From Acidobacteriaceae bacterium (GTDB taxonomy: Bacteria; Acidobacteriota; Terriglobia; Terriglobales; Acidobacteriaceae): a stretch of DNA of 64,000 bases. Below the pieces are notes generated by a model. The model saw only the letters and a list, made by a program, of their open reading frames with translations. It had not been told where the DNA came from and ran no database searches. Made by a program: the position numbers and the translations under genes. The stretch is taken from contig JAOAPC010000024.1 of NCBI GenBank assembly GCA_025462735.1, positions 1 through 64,000 of the forward strand. The letters run 5' to 3'. Positions 86 through 5,913 of the stretch are shown in pieces. Position 1 is the stretch's first letter. Each line of letters opens with the position of its first letter.

Positions 86-1540
86 ATGTTTGAACAAGCG
101 TTCAAAAACATCGATGACGTTCTCCGCAAAGAAGCTGGCTGCACTACGGAGCTCGACTACACCGAGCAAACCTCCTGGCTCTTATTCCTGAAGTACCTCG
201 ACAATCTTGAGGATGAGCGGGCCAATATTGCCAAGCTCGAAGGCAAAAAATACAGCCCCATTCTCGATAAGGACCACCAATGGGAAAACTGGGCTGCGCC
301 TAAGGGCCAGGACGGCAAGCTCGACCACAACAAAGCCCTAACCGGAGACGACCTCCGCGATTTCGTGAACGGAAAGCTTTTTCCTTACCTGCAAGGCTTT
401 AAACGAAGGGCCACCGGCCCGAACACGATCGAATACAAAATTGGACAGATCTTTGGCGAGATCAAGAACAAGATTCAAAGTGGCTACAACCTGCGCGAGA
501 TCCTCGACCACATCGACGAACTGCGCTTCCGCTCGCAGACCCAGAAGCACGAACTCTCGCACCTTTACGAAGCCAAAATCCGAAACATGGGCAACGCCGG
601 ACGTAACGGCGGCGAATACTACACGCCGCGCCCACTCATTCGCGCCATCGTCCAGGTTGTAAAGCCTCGCATCGGCGAGCGCATCTACGACGGCGCGGTT
701 GGTTCAGCGGGATTCTTGTGCGAGTCGTACGAGTACCTCACCAAAAATCGAAATCTGACCACTAAGGATGTAAGAACACTCCAGGAACGGACGTTTTATG
801 GCAAGGAGAAGAAGTCCCTCGCCTACGTCATCGCGATCATGAACATGATCCTGCATGGCATCGAAGCGCCGAACATGCTTCATTTCAACACGCTCACTGA
901 AAGTGTGCGAGATATTCAGGAAAAAGACCGCGTCGAAGTCATCATGGCTAATCCGCCATTCGGCGGCAGCGAGCGCAAGGAGATACAGCAAAACTTCCTG
1001 ATCCGCACTAGCGAAACTGCTTACCTTTTTCTCCAGCACTTCATCCGAATGCTCAAGGCAGGCGGCCGCGCCGGGGTCGTGATCAAGAACACATTCTTGT
1101 CGAATACCGACAACGCATCAGTGAGCCTCCGCAAAATGCTGCTTGAAGACTGTAAGCTGCATACCGTGTTGGACTGTCCTCAGGGCACGTTTCAAGGCTC
1201 TGGCGTCAAGACAGTGGTGCTCTTTTTCGAGAAAGGCGCGCCTACGCGCAAGATCTGGTACTACCAGCTCGACCCCGGCCGTAATCTTGGCAAAACTAAC
1301 CCGCTCAATGACGATGATCTTGCCGAGTTTGTGAAGTTGCAAAGGACCTTCGCCGACTCGCCCAAAAGTTGGAGCGTGGATGCCAACAGCATTGACAAGA
1401 CGGCATTTGATCTCTCAGTAAAGAACCCGAATGGGGGCGAGGCGATTAGACACCGTAGCCCGCGCGCGATCATGAAGGAAATCGCTGCTCTGGACATACA
1501 AAGCGTAAACGTCTTGGAAAATATCAAGTCGCTGCTATGA
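86..1540 (+). CDS. hsdM: Type I restriction-modification system, N6-adenine methyltransferase subunit HsdM
   Basis: Modification subunit of a type I R-M complex. It transfers methyl groups from S-adenosylmethionine to adenine in the site chosen by HsdS, and in the full complex it is required for cleavage. The 484-aa protein has the HsdM N-terminal helical domain (about residues 1-150), then GGEYYTPR, a SAM-binding motif I read as YDGAVGSAGF near residues 200-209, and the catalytic NPPF motif near residue 289. The usual motif I in the family is DPACGSGGF, so the Cys is replaced by Val and one Gly by Ala; the fold still looks intact. It overlaps hsdS by 4 bases (ATGA), which points to translational coupling. 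Family assignment is secure; activity is inferred. Confidence 0.93.
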   Translation: MFEQAFKNIDDVLRKEAGCTTELDYTEQTSWLLFLKYLDNLEDERANIAKLEGKKYSPILDKDHQWENWAAPKGQDGKLDHNKALTGDDLRDFVNGKLFPYLQGFKRRATGPNTIEYKIGQIFGEIKNKIQSGYNLREILDHIDELRFRSQTQKHELSHLYEAKIRNMGNAGRNGGEYYTPRPLIRAIVQVVKPRIGERIYDGAVGSAGFLCESYEYLTKNRNLTTKDVRTLQERTFYGKEKKSLAYVIAIMNMILHGIEAPNMLHFNTLTESVRDIQEKDRVEVIMANPPFGGSERKEIQQNFLIRTSETAYLFLQHFIRMLKAGGRAGVVIKNTFLSNTDNASVSLRKMLLEDCKLHTVLDCPQGTFQGSGVKTVVLFFEKGAPTRKIWYYQLDPGRNLGKTNPLNDDDLAEFVKLQRTFADSPKSWSVDANSIDKTAFDLSVKNPNGGEAIRHRSPRAIMKEIAALDIQSVNVLENIKSLL

Positions 1541-2736
1541 ACAATGGATGGAAGGCCAAGAATCTCGGCGACGTGTGCCACGTAATTGGCGGCGGTACCC
1601 CATCCAAAGCAATAGCCAACTATTATTCAGGCGAGATTCCCTGGGCCACTGTCAGGGACATGCGGCATGATGTTATTGCCGATACCGAGTGCAAGATCAC
1701 CACGGACGCCGTCAAAAACAGTGCGACAAATATTATCCCCCGAGGCAATGTGGTTATCGCAACGCGAGTGGGATTGGGAAAAGTCTGTTTGCTCCATCAA
1801 GACACCGCTATTAATCAAGACCTTCGTGGCATTATTCCTAAAGACCCGAAAGCTCCTTTGGTGCGCTATCTCTTCTGGTGGCTAAAGAACATCGCGGAGC
1901 TGATAGTGGCCGAAGGAAAGGGCGCTACGGTACAAGGCGTCACACTTCCGTTCGTAAAAGCCTTGCAGATCCCACTCCCTCCTCTTCCCGAACAGCGGCG
2001 GATTGTCGGCACCCTCGACGAAGCGTTTGAGGGCATCGCCACTGCTAAAGCCAATGCCGCGAGGAATCTCCAAAATGCGGCCGCCCTCTTCCAAAGCCAT
2101 CTCGAATCCATCTTCACCCGGCGCAGGGAGGGATGGGTTGAAACGACGTTGGGGGACATATGTCGGTTCGAGAACGGTGACCGGGGAAAGAATTACCCCA
2201 AACGTGCGGAATATGCCGCATCAGGAATACCGTGGATAAACACCGGGCACATTCAGCCCGATGGAACTCTGTCTGAGAGCGAAATGAATTTTATCTCCCC
2301 CCAAAAATACAAATCACTTCGAAGCGGGAAAATTCAACCCGGAGATTTAGTGTATTGTTTACGGGGCGCAACGCTTGGCAAAACGGCACTAGTCGAGCCT
2401 TTCACTGAGGGAGCCGTAGCCTCCTCTCTAGTCATAATTCGCCCTGGCAAGCAACTGGACCGCCGTTTCCTTTACTACTTCCTAACCAGTCCACCCGGCC
2501 AACGGCTTATCAAACTGTACGATAACGGCGCCGCCCAACCGAACCTCGGAGCTAAGAGCGTAGCCAAGTACACAATTTCAGTTCCAACGCGCGCCGAGCA
2601 AGAGTCCATAGTTCAGAAGCTCGTCGCACTTGCCGCCGAAACCCAACGCCTAGCGAGCCTCTACAAGCAGAAGGTTACGGCGCTGGAGTCATTGAAGAAG
2701 TCGCTGTTACATCAGGCCTTCACCGGCAAGTTGTAA
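1537..2736 (+). CDS. hsdS: Type I restriction-modification system, specificity subunit HsdS
   Basis: DNA-recognition subunit of the type I complex. The 399-aa protein has the standard two-half layout. A first target-recognition domain (about residues 1-150) leads into a conserved spacer containing PLPPLPEQRRIV and a helical linker. A second target-recognition domain (about 200-350) leads into a second helical spacer ending in LLHQAFTGKL. Length is normal for HsdS. It starts inside the end of hsdM and is followed 2 bases later by hsdR, so M, S and R form one operon. The recognition sequence cannot be read from the protein. No truncation or inversion cassette is seen nearby. Confidence 0.93.
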   Translation: MNNGWKAKNLGDVCHVIGGGTPSKAIANYYSGEIPWATVRDMRHDVIADTECKITTDAVKNSATNIIPRGNVVIATRVGLGKVCLLHQDTAINQDLRGIIPKDPKAPLVRYLFWWLKNIAELIVAEGKGATVQGVTLPFVKALQIPLPPLPEQRRIVGTLDEAFEGIATAKANAARNLQNAAALFQSHLESIFTRRREGWVETTLGDICRFENGDRGKNYPKRAEYAASGIPWINTGHIQPDGTLSESEMNFISPQKYKSLRSGKIQPGDLVYCLRGATLGKTALVEPFTEGAVASSLVIIRPGKQLDRRFLYYFLTSPPGQRLIKLYDNGAAQPNLGAKSVAKYTISVPTRAEQESIVQKLVALAAETQRLASLYKQKVTALESLKKSLLHQAFTGKL

Positions 2737-2738
2737 CT

Positions 2739-5159
2739 ATGAACGAAGCCGAAACCAGAGCCGAGCACATTGATCCCGCGCTGAAGCGGGCTGGCTGGGG
2801 CGTGGTTGATGGCAGTCGTGTTCGGCGCGATTACTGGATCGCTCCCGGACGCATCGAAGGCCGCATTTCTGGGGAGGTCCGTCACGGCGAGCCGCTCCGG
2901 GCGGACTACGTGCTGGAATATCGCAACACCAAAATTGGAGTCGTCGAAGCCAAGGCATGGGACAAACCGCTTACTGAAGGGTTGGGGCAGGCCAAGAATT
3001 ACGCCGAGAAGATGGCCATCCGCTACACCTATTGCACCAACGGCCAGGGCGTTTACGGCGTCGACATGGAGAGCGGCAAAGAAGGCAAGCTGCCGGTCTA
3101 TCCCACGCCCGACGAACTTTGGAACCTGACGTTTGCCAAAACCAATGCATGGCGCGACCGCTTCGCTGCCGTGCCGTATCCAGATAAGAGCGGCACGTGG
3201 GACATTCGGTTCTACCAGGAAATTTCAGTCAGTCGCGTGCTCGACGCGATTGCGAACGGACGCAACCGCCTGCTCTTGACGCTGGCGACCGGCACGGGAA
3301 AAACATCCATTGCCTTCCAGATCTCCTGGAAGCTTTTCAACGCGCGCTGGAACCTGCAGGACTGGAAAAGCGGGGGCGAGCCGACGCGTCGCCCGCGCAT
3401 CCTGTTCCTTGCCGATCGCAACAATCTCGCCGACCAGGCCTACAACGACTTCGCGTCGTTCTCCGCATTCTCAGAAGACGCCATGAAGCGGATCGAACCC
3501 GAAGACATCCGCAAAAAGGGCAAAGTCCCGAAGAATGCCAGCGTATTCTTCACCATTTTCCAGACCTTCATGAGCGGCCCGCCTAAAGACGGCGAACCCT
3601 CGCCTTATTTCGGCGAGTATCCACCTGACTTTTTCGACTTCATCGTCATTGACGAGTGCCATCGCGGTGGCGCCAACGACGAAAGCAATTGGCGCGGCAT
3701 CATGGAATATTTTGCTCCTGCCGTCCAGCTGGGGCTGACCGCGACACCTCGTCGCAAAGAGAATGCAGACACATACGCTTACTTCGGCGAGCCGCTCTTC
3801 ATTTACTCGCTGCGCGAGGGGATCAATGACGGCTTTCTCACGCCGTTCCGCGTCAAGCAGATTGCCACCACGCTCGATGATTACGTCTATACGCCGGATG
3901 ATTTAGTGGTGGATGGCAACATTGAAACCGGAAGGCGATACACGGAGAAGGATTTCAACCGGATTATCGAGATCCAGGCCCGCGAAGCGAAGCGTGTGAA
4001 GGTGTTCATGGACCAGATCGACCAAAACGAAAAGACTCTAGTGTTTTGCGCGACCCAGGACCACGCGCTGGCAGTTCGCGACCTCATCAACCAAATGAAG
4101 ACCAGCCCCGACTCACACTATTGCGTGCGCGTGACCGCCAATGACGGCGAACAGGGCAATCAGTATCTGCGCGACTTTCAGGACAACGAAAGGACAATTC
4201 CGACAATTTTGACGACGTCGCAAAAGCTCTCAACCGGCGTGGACGCGCGCAATGTCCGCAACATAGTGCTGATGCGACCGATCAATACCATGATCGAATT
4301 CAAGCAGATCATTGGCCGCGGCACCAGGACCTACGAGGGCAAGGACTATTTCACCATTTATGACTTCGTGAAGGCGTATCTCCACTTCAGCGATCCGGAG
4401 TGGGAGGGCCCGCCGCTTGAACCGGAACCCTGCTCGAAGTGCGGGTCTTATCCCTGTGAGTGCGACAGGGCAGCGCCGCGGCTATGCGCCGCGTGCGGAA
4501 AGCGACCATGTGAATGCCTGGAAGAACCCTGCGCAGTTTGCGGCGAGCAACCTTGCAGGTGCAAGAAGAAAGCGACAGTAAAGCTGGCCGACGGCAAAGA
4601 GCGGTCCATCCAGCACATGGTTGCGACCGCATTCTGGCACCCGGACGGCACGCCGATGTCGGCACAGCAGTTCATGGAATCGCTATTTGGGGAACTGCCG
4701 GAGTTTTTCAAAGACGAAGCCGAGCTACGCACATTGTGGAGCGTGCCGGATACACGCAAGAAGCTTCTGCAGGGCCTCGCTGAAAAGGGTTTTGGCCATG
4801 AACAGCTGTCCGAAATGCAGAGGATTATCAATGCCGAAAAGAGCGATCTGTTCGACGTACTCGCCTATGTTGCCTATGCGCTGCCGCCGCTCACCCGCGA
4901 AGAACGCGCGGCTCGCGCTAAGGTAGCTATTGGCAGCCATTTTTCCAGCAAACAACAGGCTTTTCTGGAGTTCGTGTTGGGCCACTATGTGGGTATCGGC
5001 GTAGACGAACTGGATCCGGAGAAACTGACGCCGCTGCTCCGGTTGAGGTATTCCAACTCCATTGCTGACGCGATTGCTGACCTCGGTAGGCCGGAGGATA
5101 TCGGCAAAGTATTCGTGGGATTTCAAAAATATCTTTATGAGGAGAGAGTTCCCCGATAG
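2739..5159 (+). CDS. hsdR: Type I restriction endonuclease subunit HsdR with Cys-rich insert
   Basis: Motor and nuclease subunit of the type I system, which translocates DNA using ATP and cleaves it. The order is an N-terminal PD-(D/E)XK nuclease (VVEAKAW near residues 68-74), a helicase core with Walker A (ATGTGKTS, near 181-190), the DECH box near 304-307, the TATPRR motif III, and a second RecA domain with QIIGRGTR. The C-terminal part resembles the EcoEI-type HsdR C-terminal domain. Between the helicase and that domain, residues about 563-610 hold three copies of a C-x2-CG-x2-PC-x-C pattern, which looks like a zinc-binding insert. The 806-aa length is within the range of EcoEI-like HsdR proteins. 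The gene closes the hsdMSR operon. Confidence 0.92.
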   Translation: MNEAETRAEHIDPALKRAGWGVVDGSRVRRDYWIAPGRIEGRISGEVRHGEPLRADYVLEYRNTKIGVVEAKAWDKPLTEGLGQAKNYAEKMAIRYTYCTNGQGVYGVDMESGKEGKLPVYPTPDELWNLTFAKTNAWRDRFAAVPYPDKSGTWDIRFYQEISVSRVLDAIANGRNRLLLTLATGTGKTSIAFQISWKLFNARWNLQDWKSGGEPTRRPRILFLADRNNLADQAYNDFASFSAFSEDAMKRIEPEDIRKKGKVPKNASVFFTIFQTFMSGPPKDGEPSPYFGEYPPDFFDFIVIDECHRGGANDESNWRGIMEYFAPAVQLGLTATPRRKENADTYAYFGEPLFIYSLREGINDGFLTPFRVKQIATTLDDYVYTPDDLVVDGNIETGRRYTEKDFNRIIEIQAREAKRVKVFMDQIDQNEKTLVFCATQDHALAVRDLINQMKTSPDSHYCVRVTANDGEQGNQYLRDFQDNERTIPTILTTSQKLSTGVDARNVRNIVLMRPINTMIEFKQIIGRGTRTYEGKDYFTIYDFVKAYLHFSDPEWEGPPLEPEPCSKCGSYPCECDRAAPRLCAACGKRPCECLEEPCAVCGEQPCRCKKKATVKLADGKERSIQHMVATAFWHPDGTPMSAQQFMESLFGELPEFFKDEAELRTLWSVPDTRKKLLQGLAEKGFGHEQLSEMQRIINAEKSDLFDVLAYVAYALPPLTREERAARAKVAIGSHFSSKQQAFLEFVLGHYVGIGVDELDPEKLTPLLRLRYSNSIADAIADLGRPEDIGKVFVGFQKYLYEERVPR

Positions 5160-5207
5160 CTGCTGCTCGGCCTGACGGCCTCGCGTTCTGGCGTGTTGTT
5201 CTGGATA

Positions 5208-5227
5208 CCCAGGGCTGACGCCCTGGG
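5208..5227. repeat. Palindrome of the GCNCTGACGNGC type
   Basis: The 20-base sequence cccagggctgacgccctggg is an inverted repeat with the loop CTGACG. It sits at the broken 3' end of the transposase remnant. It matches the second hairpin of the composite elements near 7.7, 32.4 and 35.4 kb, with a different stem sequence but the same CTGACG-type centre. Confidence 0.75.
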
Positions 5228-5237
5228 CTCCAGTTTT

Positions 5238-5633
5238 TCTTTCAGGCTCTCTTGAGAACGGAGAACGTGGTCGAACGATTCCTCTTGCCAAACTGGGCCT
5301 GAAGAACCGAGCAGCGTGTTCACGCTTCGGGCTGCGGCTCCCTTGATTAACTTGAGAATTGCGGGTAAGCCGTAGGGCCCAGCCTTCTTCGTCTTGGAGT
5401 GGAGTCAACAGGAGATGAGCATGGTCTGGCATTACGACAGCGGCATGAAGGTGAAATCGATTGCTGTGGCCTTTAAGACAGGCTTTCAAAACGATGTCCC
5501 GGGCTTCGGGTTGGAAAGGCTCCCGCGTTAACTTGCAGAATGTCACGAAAAGAGGCCTTGCTGGCTTCTGATGATGCGGCAGCATGCGCCGGTAGTTGTA
5601 CATTCGGTCAAGAGGAACATGTCGAGAATGCAT
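5238..5633 (-). pseudogene. REP-associated tyrosine transposase (IS200/RAYT-like), frameshifted and truncated
   Basis: On the minus strand, the frame from 5633 reads NYRRMLPHHQKPARPLFVTF and then VVMPDHAHLLLTPLQD. The HAH pair is the HUH nuclease motif of Y1/RAYT transposases. Near 5375-5385 the family-like reading leaves this frame and continues in another as LPAILKLIKGAAARSVNTLL and then GPVWQEESFDHVLRSQESLK. One indel therefore broke the gene. The coding match ends at KEKLE, exactly where a 20-bp palindrome (5208-5227) begins, so the C terminus is also lost. RAYT proteins are thought to mobilise REP palindromes, and REP-like copies lie within a few hundred bases. Confidence 0.8.
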
Positions 5634-5644
5634 AGGCTGTGTGG

Positions 5645-5913
5645 CTCGGACATTCTTGTCCGAGTTTTGAATTTATAGCTGAGTCCGGCAATGGAGTCTG
5701 TGATGACTGAACATCTGGTTTGTGCAAACCCCCGGCTTTTTGTCGGACAAGAATGTCCGACCCACAACAGAAGCAAAACCAAAATCAAAGGCGTCGGACA
5801 AGAGTGTCCGACCCACACGGCCTATGCAGCTTTCACGACTTGTCGGACAGGAATGTCCGACCCCACAACAGAAGCAAAACCAAAATCAAAGGCGTCGGAC
5901 AAGAGTGTCCGAC
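5645..5913. repeat. Cluster of five REP-like palindromes, including a tandem duplication
   Basis: Copies of the palindrome gtcggacaagaatgtccgac or close variants lie at 5645-5664 (inverted form), 5741-5760, 5793-5812, 5841-5860 and 5894-5913. The unit from 5741 to about 5816 (two palindromes plus an A-rich spacer) is repeated at 5841 to about 5917 with only a few differences, so a pair was duplicated about 100 bases downstream. Other single copies occur at 7177, 7990, 32302 and 32554. Confidence 0.9.

Follow-up and report, generated by a model that had tools for sequence, protein, structure and literature searches.

A repeated four-cysteine array in the linker of EcoEI-type HsdR proteins: distribution, exchange and a putative role as metal-stabilised tether

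Introduction

The mechanical coupling between the HsdR motor of type I restriction enzymes and the methyltransferase core, and the way in which translocation leads to cleavage, are still incompletely understood. As far as described in the available part of PMC5248579, the HsdR of the type IC enzyme EcoR124I consists of a nuclease, two RecA domains, a short linker and a helical domain; this C-terminal helical domain, connected to helicase domain 2 by the short linker, has a part in ATPase activity, translocation and cleavage and is thought to contact HsdM. The HsdR studied here is encoded at the start of a stretch of 64,000 nucleotides from an Acidobacteriaceae bacterium, the whole of which is called the window below. 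It has the same order of parts, but its linker contains three cysteine-rich units in a row, whereas the EcoR124I linker is described as short and the available part of the source mentions no Cys array (PMC5248579). What is this array, how widely is it found among HsdR proteins, and what may it do in a restriction motor? A literature search, mostly of open-access papers, found no paper on a cysteine or zinc array in HsdR: in the accessible part of PMC3874165 'zinc' occurs 0 times and 'cysteine' once, concerning ArdB, and in the accessible part of PMC12707154 'zinc' occurs once, in a reference on RloC, and 'cysteine' concerns phosphorothioation.

Results

The HsdR of the window and its cysteine array

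A type I restriction operon, complete in its three genes, lies at the start of the window. The expected type I neighbours, hsdM and hsdS, are present directly upstream of hsdR, with only 2 bases between hsdS and hsdR:

86..1540, forward strand: hsdM, 484 aa, N6 DNA methylase (PF02384, 208 bits; PADLOC MTase_I)
1537..2736, forward strand: hsdS, 399 aa, specificity subunit (PF01420, 141.8 bits; PADLOC Specificity_I)
2739..5159 (stop included), forward strand: hsdR, 806 aa, EcoAI/FtnUII (EcoEI-type) R subunit, type I restriction
4413..4577, forward strand: approximate extent of the replaceable linker cassette, by analogy with the DNA-identity breaks in four sister pairs of relatives
4431..4463 (aa 565-575), forward strand: unit 1, CSKCGSYPCEC, sequence motif
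4485..4517 (aa 583-593), forward strand: unit 2, CAACGKRPCEC, sequence motif
4530..4562 (aa 598-608), forward strand: unit 3, CAVCGEQPCRC, sequence motif
4665..5138 (aa 643-800), forward strand: EcoEI_R_C domain, helical in the predicted model

HsdR is a full-length match to the EcoAI/FtnUII family model NF046051 (aa 1-801, 783 bits, cut-off 550) and has a clear EcoEI_R_C domain (PF08463, 107.9 bits, cut-off 24). Residues D56, E70 and K72, which we take to be nuclease residues, and G185-T-G-K188-T189, presumably the Walker residues, are invariant in 75 aligned rows. The closest solved structure is 3h1t, a fragment of the HsdR of Vibrio vulnificus YJ016 (aa 1-561, E 3e-133, Foldseek TM 0.84 by target); this match stops at aa 561, just before the array, and 3h1t therefore provides no structure of the linker. 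In Foldseek searches the full HsdR model resembles, next to 3h1t, the HsdR of EcoR124I (4beb, 2w00, 6h2j) and RadD.

The initial annotation had reported a triplicated C-x2-C-G-x2-P-C-x-C motif in HsdR, and this was borne out: the frame is open, the three units are present, with coordinates right to within a few bases, and all three have the same internal spacing C-x2-C-x4-C-x-C. The array lies, as had been proposed, between the helicase core and the C-terminal domain, flanked by Helicase_C (aa 424-530) and EcoEI_R_C (aa 643-800). The linkers between the units had been described as Glu/Pro-rich; with the sequences DRAAPRL (7 residues) and LEEP (4 residues), this description fits the present protein in part only. 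The last unit is followed by a basic tail (KKK).

The units hold 12 of the 16 cysteines of HsdR within 44 residues. When the protein was shuffled 20,000 times, one trial had at least one quartet and none had two or more. At the DNA level the units of this hsdR share just 55-67% identity, indicating that the repeat is old, and a recent tandem duplication as origin of the array is ruled out by these values; Tandem Repeats Finder does not list the array. When units are compared between proteins at the seven non-Cys positions, those at the same position in the array are slightly more alike (0.40, 0.45, 0.48) than those at different positions (0.35, 0.37, 0.42); small as the difference is, the unit positions appear to be old and to have escaped homogenisation.

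The DNA around the end of hsdR has features of its own. The palindrome GTCGGACAnGAATGTCCGAC is found in five copies in the window (at 5742, 5842, 7177, 7990 and 32554), two of which form a tandem array just downstream of hsdR; it looks like a dispersed REP-like element. A 302-aa reverse ORF (4725-5633, reverse strand) overlaps hsdR at its end. The first part of this ORF, VVMPDHAHLLLTP, resembles, we presume, a REP-associated tyrosine transposase, and a Pfam search with this ORF returned no family match.

The array is found in many phyla and in varying copy number

A whole-protein scan of genome contigs identified 353 relatives, of which the best 80 were kept, a sample biased towards the query. 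These best 80 span 15 named phyla or candidate phyla, with one record unplaced, and the array is found in 62 of them, across 11 of the 15 phyla. A survey of Acidobacteriota added 30 loci, and 108 HsdRs were extracted after three duplicates had been dropped. The LADGK-type C-terminal region is shared by 91 of the 108; of these, 60 have three units, two have two, two have four and 27 have none. Universality of the array among EcoEI-type proteins was thus checked and not found: in this query-biased sample 64 of the 91 LADGK-type HsdRs carry it and 27 lack it.

Proportions were lower in surveys with the family model. In Acidobacteriota (396 genomes), 36 members exceed the cut-off and 4 of them have the array. 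For Pseudomonadota (398 genomes), 53 members were listed and 49 read; the array is present in 9 of those read, one of which, L239, is truncated within it. For the phylum to which the Trichlorobacter genome G396 belongs (297 genomes), 44 members were listed and 41 read, 8 of them with the array. Seven listed members outside these counts match the family model in part only, and some survey sequences stop ahead of the linker, for example L103, L198 and L240.

Altogether, 217 distinct EcoAI/EcoEI-type HsdRs were collected: 69 have three units, 12 two, five four, one five, two have one (L239 and L249) and 128 have none, the last including L195, which has no quartet and whose motif VI escaped recognition. 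No quartet was found outside the linker region of the 217 proteins. The HsdR of the window has the nuclease, SF2 motor, EcoEI_R_C domain and adjacent hsdM and hsdS in common with the EcoAI/EcoEI (type IB-like) family (NF046051/PF08463), but the family models leave the array unmatched, and its absence from 128 of 217 members agrees with the initial view that it is no part of the general HsdR plan. The array is thus widespread over many bacterial phyla, neither unique nor universal.

Among the more distant members, two units are present in L217, L222 and the Bacteroidota-survey loci L243-L248, four in L219, L223 and L225, and five in L226; partial or altered units are found in L079, L234, L239 and L249. 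No array was found in EcoAI-like loci with another C-terminus (L083-L098, L146-L198). The HsdR of a Segatella hominis plasmid (L242, 4324-6720) belongs to a divergent branch, has a non-LADGK C-terminus and two units, perhaps the result of cassette transfer between HsdR branches. The HsdR of E. coli ET82, a sediment isolate, has three units (WP_370621069.1). When its gene was compared at the DNA level with 5,426 E. coli genomes, no second full-length match was found, a search that distant matches could escape; two E. coli MADS-type HsdRs examined have no array.

In several relatives additional genes are found ahead of hsdR. The plasmid relatives L113 (3277-3973) and L114 (3318-3997) have a Phd/YefM antitoxin and a PIN/VapC toxin between hsdS and hsdR, the plasmid relative L115 (1-79) has a PIN gene ahead of hsdR, and in E. 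coli ET82 (L255, 7155-9008) a DUF262 gene separates hsdS from the hsdR that encodes the array; a gene for a recombinase lies close by. A link between the array and extra hsdS-hsdR DNA, such as a toxin-antitoxin pair, found no support: a gap of more than 300 bases is present in 42 loci with array and absent from 11, and present in 13 loci without array and absent from six (Fisher p 0.36).

Single units occur outside HsdR

The array was searched in 694 genomes (297 + 198 + 199), using as query the 55-aa stretch encoded by 4413..4577, which comprises the Pro/Glu lead-in, the three units and the basic tail; 28 places were turned into loci. The search of 297 genomes, which allowed E values up to 1, gave weak matches in 191 genomes; the best 20 places became loci and comprise four three-unit HsdRs (L116-L119), 14 sequences without a quartet and two with a single quartet (L124, L129). 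All matches in the 198 and 199 genomes (7/7 and 1/1) are HsdRs, and arrays of at least two units are restricted to HsdR among the 28 loci. Both single quartets are from Acidobacteriota: L124 (1471-1701, E 0.01) has the unit CGACGKNPCEC in a short, basic, non-HsdR ORF of 76 aa, and L129 (1498-1590, E 0.015) has CVGCGKNPCEC in a broken non-HsdR frame. The short ORF common to both combines a CxxCGKNPCEC unit with a SIAEFREWIL-type tail and is a putative protein with no known function. These single units speak against strict HsdR specificity of the unit. A plasmid search gave six matches, two of them under E 1e-3 (Methylomagnum, Segatella), both HsdRs; a phage search with the array gave three matches, none with an E value under 4, and a scan of viral contigs with the whole HsdR found no relative.

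The L124 ORF bears on the possibility that the knuckles grip DNA, or a surface of HsdM or HsdS, as a zinc-knuckle clamp that would hold the duplex while helicase domain 2 pumps. Many small Cys4 knuckles bind nucleic acid, the array adjoins the motor and the last unit is followed by the basic KKK tail; a single unit within a short basic protein would fit too. Yet the loop residues are only partly basic, the gaps are rich in Glu and Pro and close relatives do without the array altogether, and we regard such a grip as unlikely.

Cysteines are conserved, most other positions are not

In an alignment of 67 three-unit arrays the only invariant columns are the 12 cysteines and one proline, while most other positions vary. 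As these rows were chosen for having three quartets, the number of cysteines over 206 linkers is the fairer measure of conservation: 126 linkers have 0-2 cysteines, 80 have at least six and none has 3-5. Across 192 units, position 5 is G in 177 and position 8 is P in 180; the commonest residues give CPKCGCYPCVC for unit 1, CPVCGKRPCEC for unit 2 and CPKCGQRPCVC for unit 3. Both Cys codons are found at all 12 positions (68 proteins), and the identity of the cysteines is therefore kept at the protein level. On sequence grounds this looks like selection for four-Cys sites, a pattern that is silent on which metal would be bound.

The linker is exchanged against Cys-less versions

The clearest case is offered by L017 (from a Syntrophales assembly) and L048 (from a Syntrophaceae assembly). 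Their HsdRs are about 95% alike on either side of the linker, yet the array is present in only one of them, the other having a Pro/Glu linker free of Cys. Their hsdR genes are 92.7% identical over the 1,641 bases before the linker and 90.1% over the 586 bases after it; in between, 159 bases encoding three units stand against 102 bases encoding the Cys-less linker. The two loci also match in parts of the upstream hsdM and of a downstream gene; L017 has extra DNA between hsdM and hsdS relative to L048, L048 has about 0.86 kb between hsdS and hsdR that are absent from L017, and the two HsdS proteins share no more than 36% likeness, which is what different target-recognition domains would lead one to expect. 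In three further sister pairs (L012/L066, L080/L109, L022/L057) the match between the hsdR genes is interrupted at this position too. Most of these cases are metagenome assemblies, of which single ones could be chimeric, but recurrence in several pairs speaks against this. Nine of 27 Cys-less linkers end with KRQ-x-[IV]-K, even though they are scattered over the tree; this shared ending suggests that the linker has been swapped as a ready-made cassette rather than having decayed repeatedly. As near-identical HsdRs carry a Cys-less linker, catalysis as such probably does not depend on the array, provided that the Cys-less enzymes are active, as we would expect.

A FastTree tree was built from linker-free HsdRs (116 rows; L216, L118 and short and distant HsdRs were left out). 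With 42 starred and 40 open branches out of 113, changes between presence and absence of the array are also given at higher branch support: there are at least 21, of which 13 are at support of at least 95 and six at 99. Shuffled array labels gave on average 32, 22 and 14 changes at the same three levels; the lower observed numbers indicate that the state of the array is also partly inherited. So many flips could be expected of a neutral linker of low constraint that became Cys-rich by chance in some lineages. Such a linker would hardly keep 12 cysteines invariant in 67 rows in which most non-Cys positions vary, nor G at position 5 and P at position 8 in more than 170 of 192 units, and it would not leave the range of 3-5 cysteines empty in all 206 linkers; we consider this explanation very improbable.

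Units are mostly spaced in steps of three residues

Between neighbouring quartets of all HsdRs collected, the gap is 1+3n residues long in 160 of 169 cases, namely 1, 4, 7 or 10, plus one gap of 22 in L079, which extends over a broken unit. Nine gaps deviate and are found in L029 (8 and 6), L219 (5), L223 and L225 (8), L243, L244 and L248 (6) and the E. coli protein L251 (9). Pro makes up 38% of the gap residues and Glu 17%. Counted from the DG motif up to the first Cys, the lead-in is also 1 mod 3 in 74 of 78 cases; the tail after the last Cys has 7 or 9 residues in 74 of 79 and is outside the 1+3n rule. Whole-linker length was used as control: Cys-less linkers fall into the three mod-3 classes with 13, 13 and 9, and three-unit linkers (57-63 residues) follow no single class either, because of the variable tail, which makes length a weak control.

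On the tree, three-unit proteins have undergone 11 changes in gap length, and the only two that alter the mod-3 class are both in L029, where they cancel (8 + 6 = 14); proteins with other unit numbers bring further exceptions. The preference is partly due to common descent. A polyproline-II strand makes one turn per three residues, and gap lengths that change by three residues would leave the knuckles in phase on such a strand, as far as can be judged from the sequences; the steps may also stem from duplication of tripeptides, a simpler source.

Structure predictions and comparison with known metal sites

In the AlphaFold model of full HsdR the array has pLDDT values of 53-64; array-only prediction (57 rows) gave 71-78 and no secondary structure. 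Searching Pfam and NCBIfam with the array identified no significant model; in Pfam the array of the window was unmatched, and the best value among 67 members was E 0.18. In the PDB the best match is the zinc ribbon of ribosomal eL37, with a non-significant E of 0.04. Retroviral-type zinc knuckles have the spacing C-x2-C-x4-H-x4-C. A classification as CCHC zinc knuckle was rejected, as the spacing C-x2-C-x4-C-x-C differs. Array units are, like these knuckles and the eL37-type zinc ribbons, short, Cys-rich and contain CxxCG, a resemblance in the way of working only; they differ by their 2-4-1 spacing, four Cys and no His, and have no significant match.

The weak eL37 alignment does not pair the four cysteines of one unit, but the CxxC of unit 2 with the CxxC of unit 3, and a metallothionein (1jjd) is in the PDB list at E 3.8. 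Both would agree with a metallothionein-like cluster, in which the CxC of one unit and the CxxC of the next share ions within one small domain, and so would the eight gaps of a single residue (CxC-P-CxxC). However, gaps of 1-10 residues and 2-5 units are hard to fit into one cluster, it is mostly whole quartets that are lost or gained (L079, L234, L239 and L249 being the partial or altered cases), and one unit can stand alone, as in L124. Cross-unit sharing is, in our judgement, distinctly unlikely.

With 12 cysteines in 44 residues, the array could also hold Fe-S clusters or disulfides and switch restriction in response to oxygen or metal stress. Fe-S clusters occur in other nuclease-helicases (AddB, Cas4, XPD), but we know of no Fe-S spacing that resembles the array, its carriers include, judging by what we take their names to mean, anaerobic as well as aerobic groups, and the Cys-less state of a sister protein would make the switch dispensable. 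We find a sensor of this kind rather improbable.

Discussion

Judged from sequence, the zinc-knuckle reading is the likeliest. Each C-x2-C-G-x2-P-C-x-C unit would be a self-contained four-Cys site, most likely for one Zn(II); the range of 2-5 units, gaps down to one residue and the lone unit of L124 favour one putative site per unit. The three knuckles of the window protein would sit like beads on a Pro/Glu-rich strand linking the helical C-terminal domain with helicase domain 2, and as a gap step of three residues corresponds to one polyproline-II turn, neighbouring knuckles would face the same way. The array would thereby act as a metal-stabilised tether between motor and tail, probably a fairly rigid one, that sets distance and orientation of the motor relative to the HsdR region believed to dock on the methyltransferase, and it would be one interchangeable version of the linker. 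To this metal-stabilised tether we give an even chance. Several points count against it: a single tetrahedral site would have to fit the tight spacing C-x2-C-x4-C-x-C, the array matches none of the solved or curated zinc families, AlphaFold confidence is only moderate and the predicted array has no secondary structure. The spacing rule has nine exceptions, comes from related sequences and does not extend to the tail, and some units are partial. Linker exchange fits, moreover, a linker whose sequence hardly matters.

A bolder version, which we put forward tentatively and would sooner bet against, is an undescribed modular 'knuckle rod' in motors of the EcoEI branch: 2-5 putative zinc units in three-residue steps, with the knuckles on one side, would set the geometry of motor-methyltransferase coupling and recombine with the Cys-less linker, a swappable hsd cassette beside the target-recognition domains of HsdS.

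Our data extend the initial annotation by the presence of the array in many phyla, with 2-5 units, mostly three-residue steps and exchange for Cys-less linkers. The array looks like a putative metal-site module that is unnamed in the libraries searched, and the domain that would couple the motor to the methyltransferase core hangs on this linker. The natural pairs of near-identical HsdRs with and without array are a ready-made experiment, and the copy in E. coli isolate ET82 opens the array to study in E. coli. Cassette exchange and the steps of three residues are the parts of the finding most worth testing.
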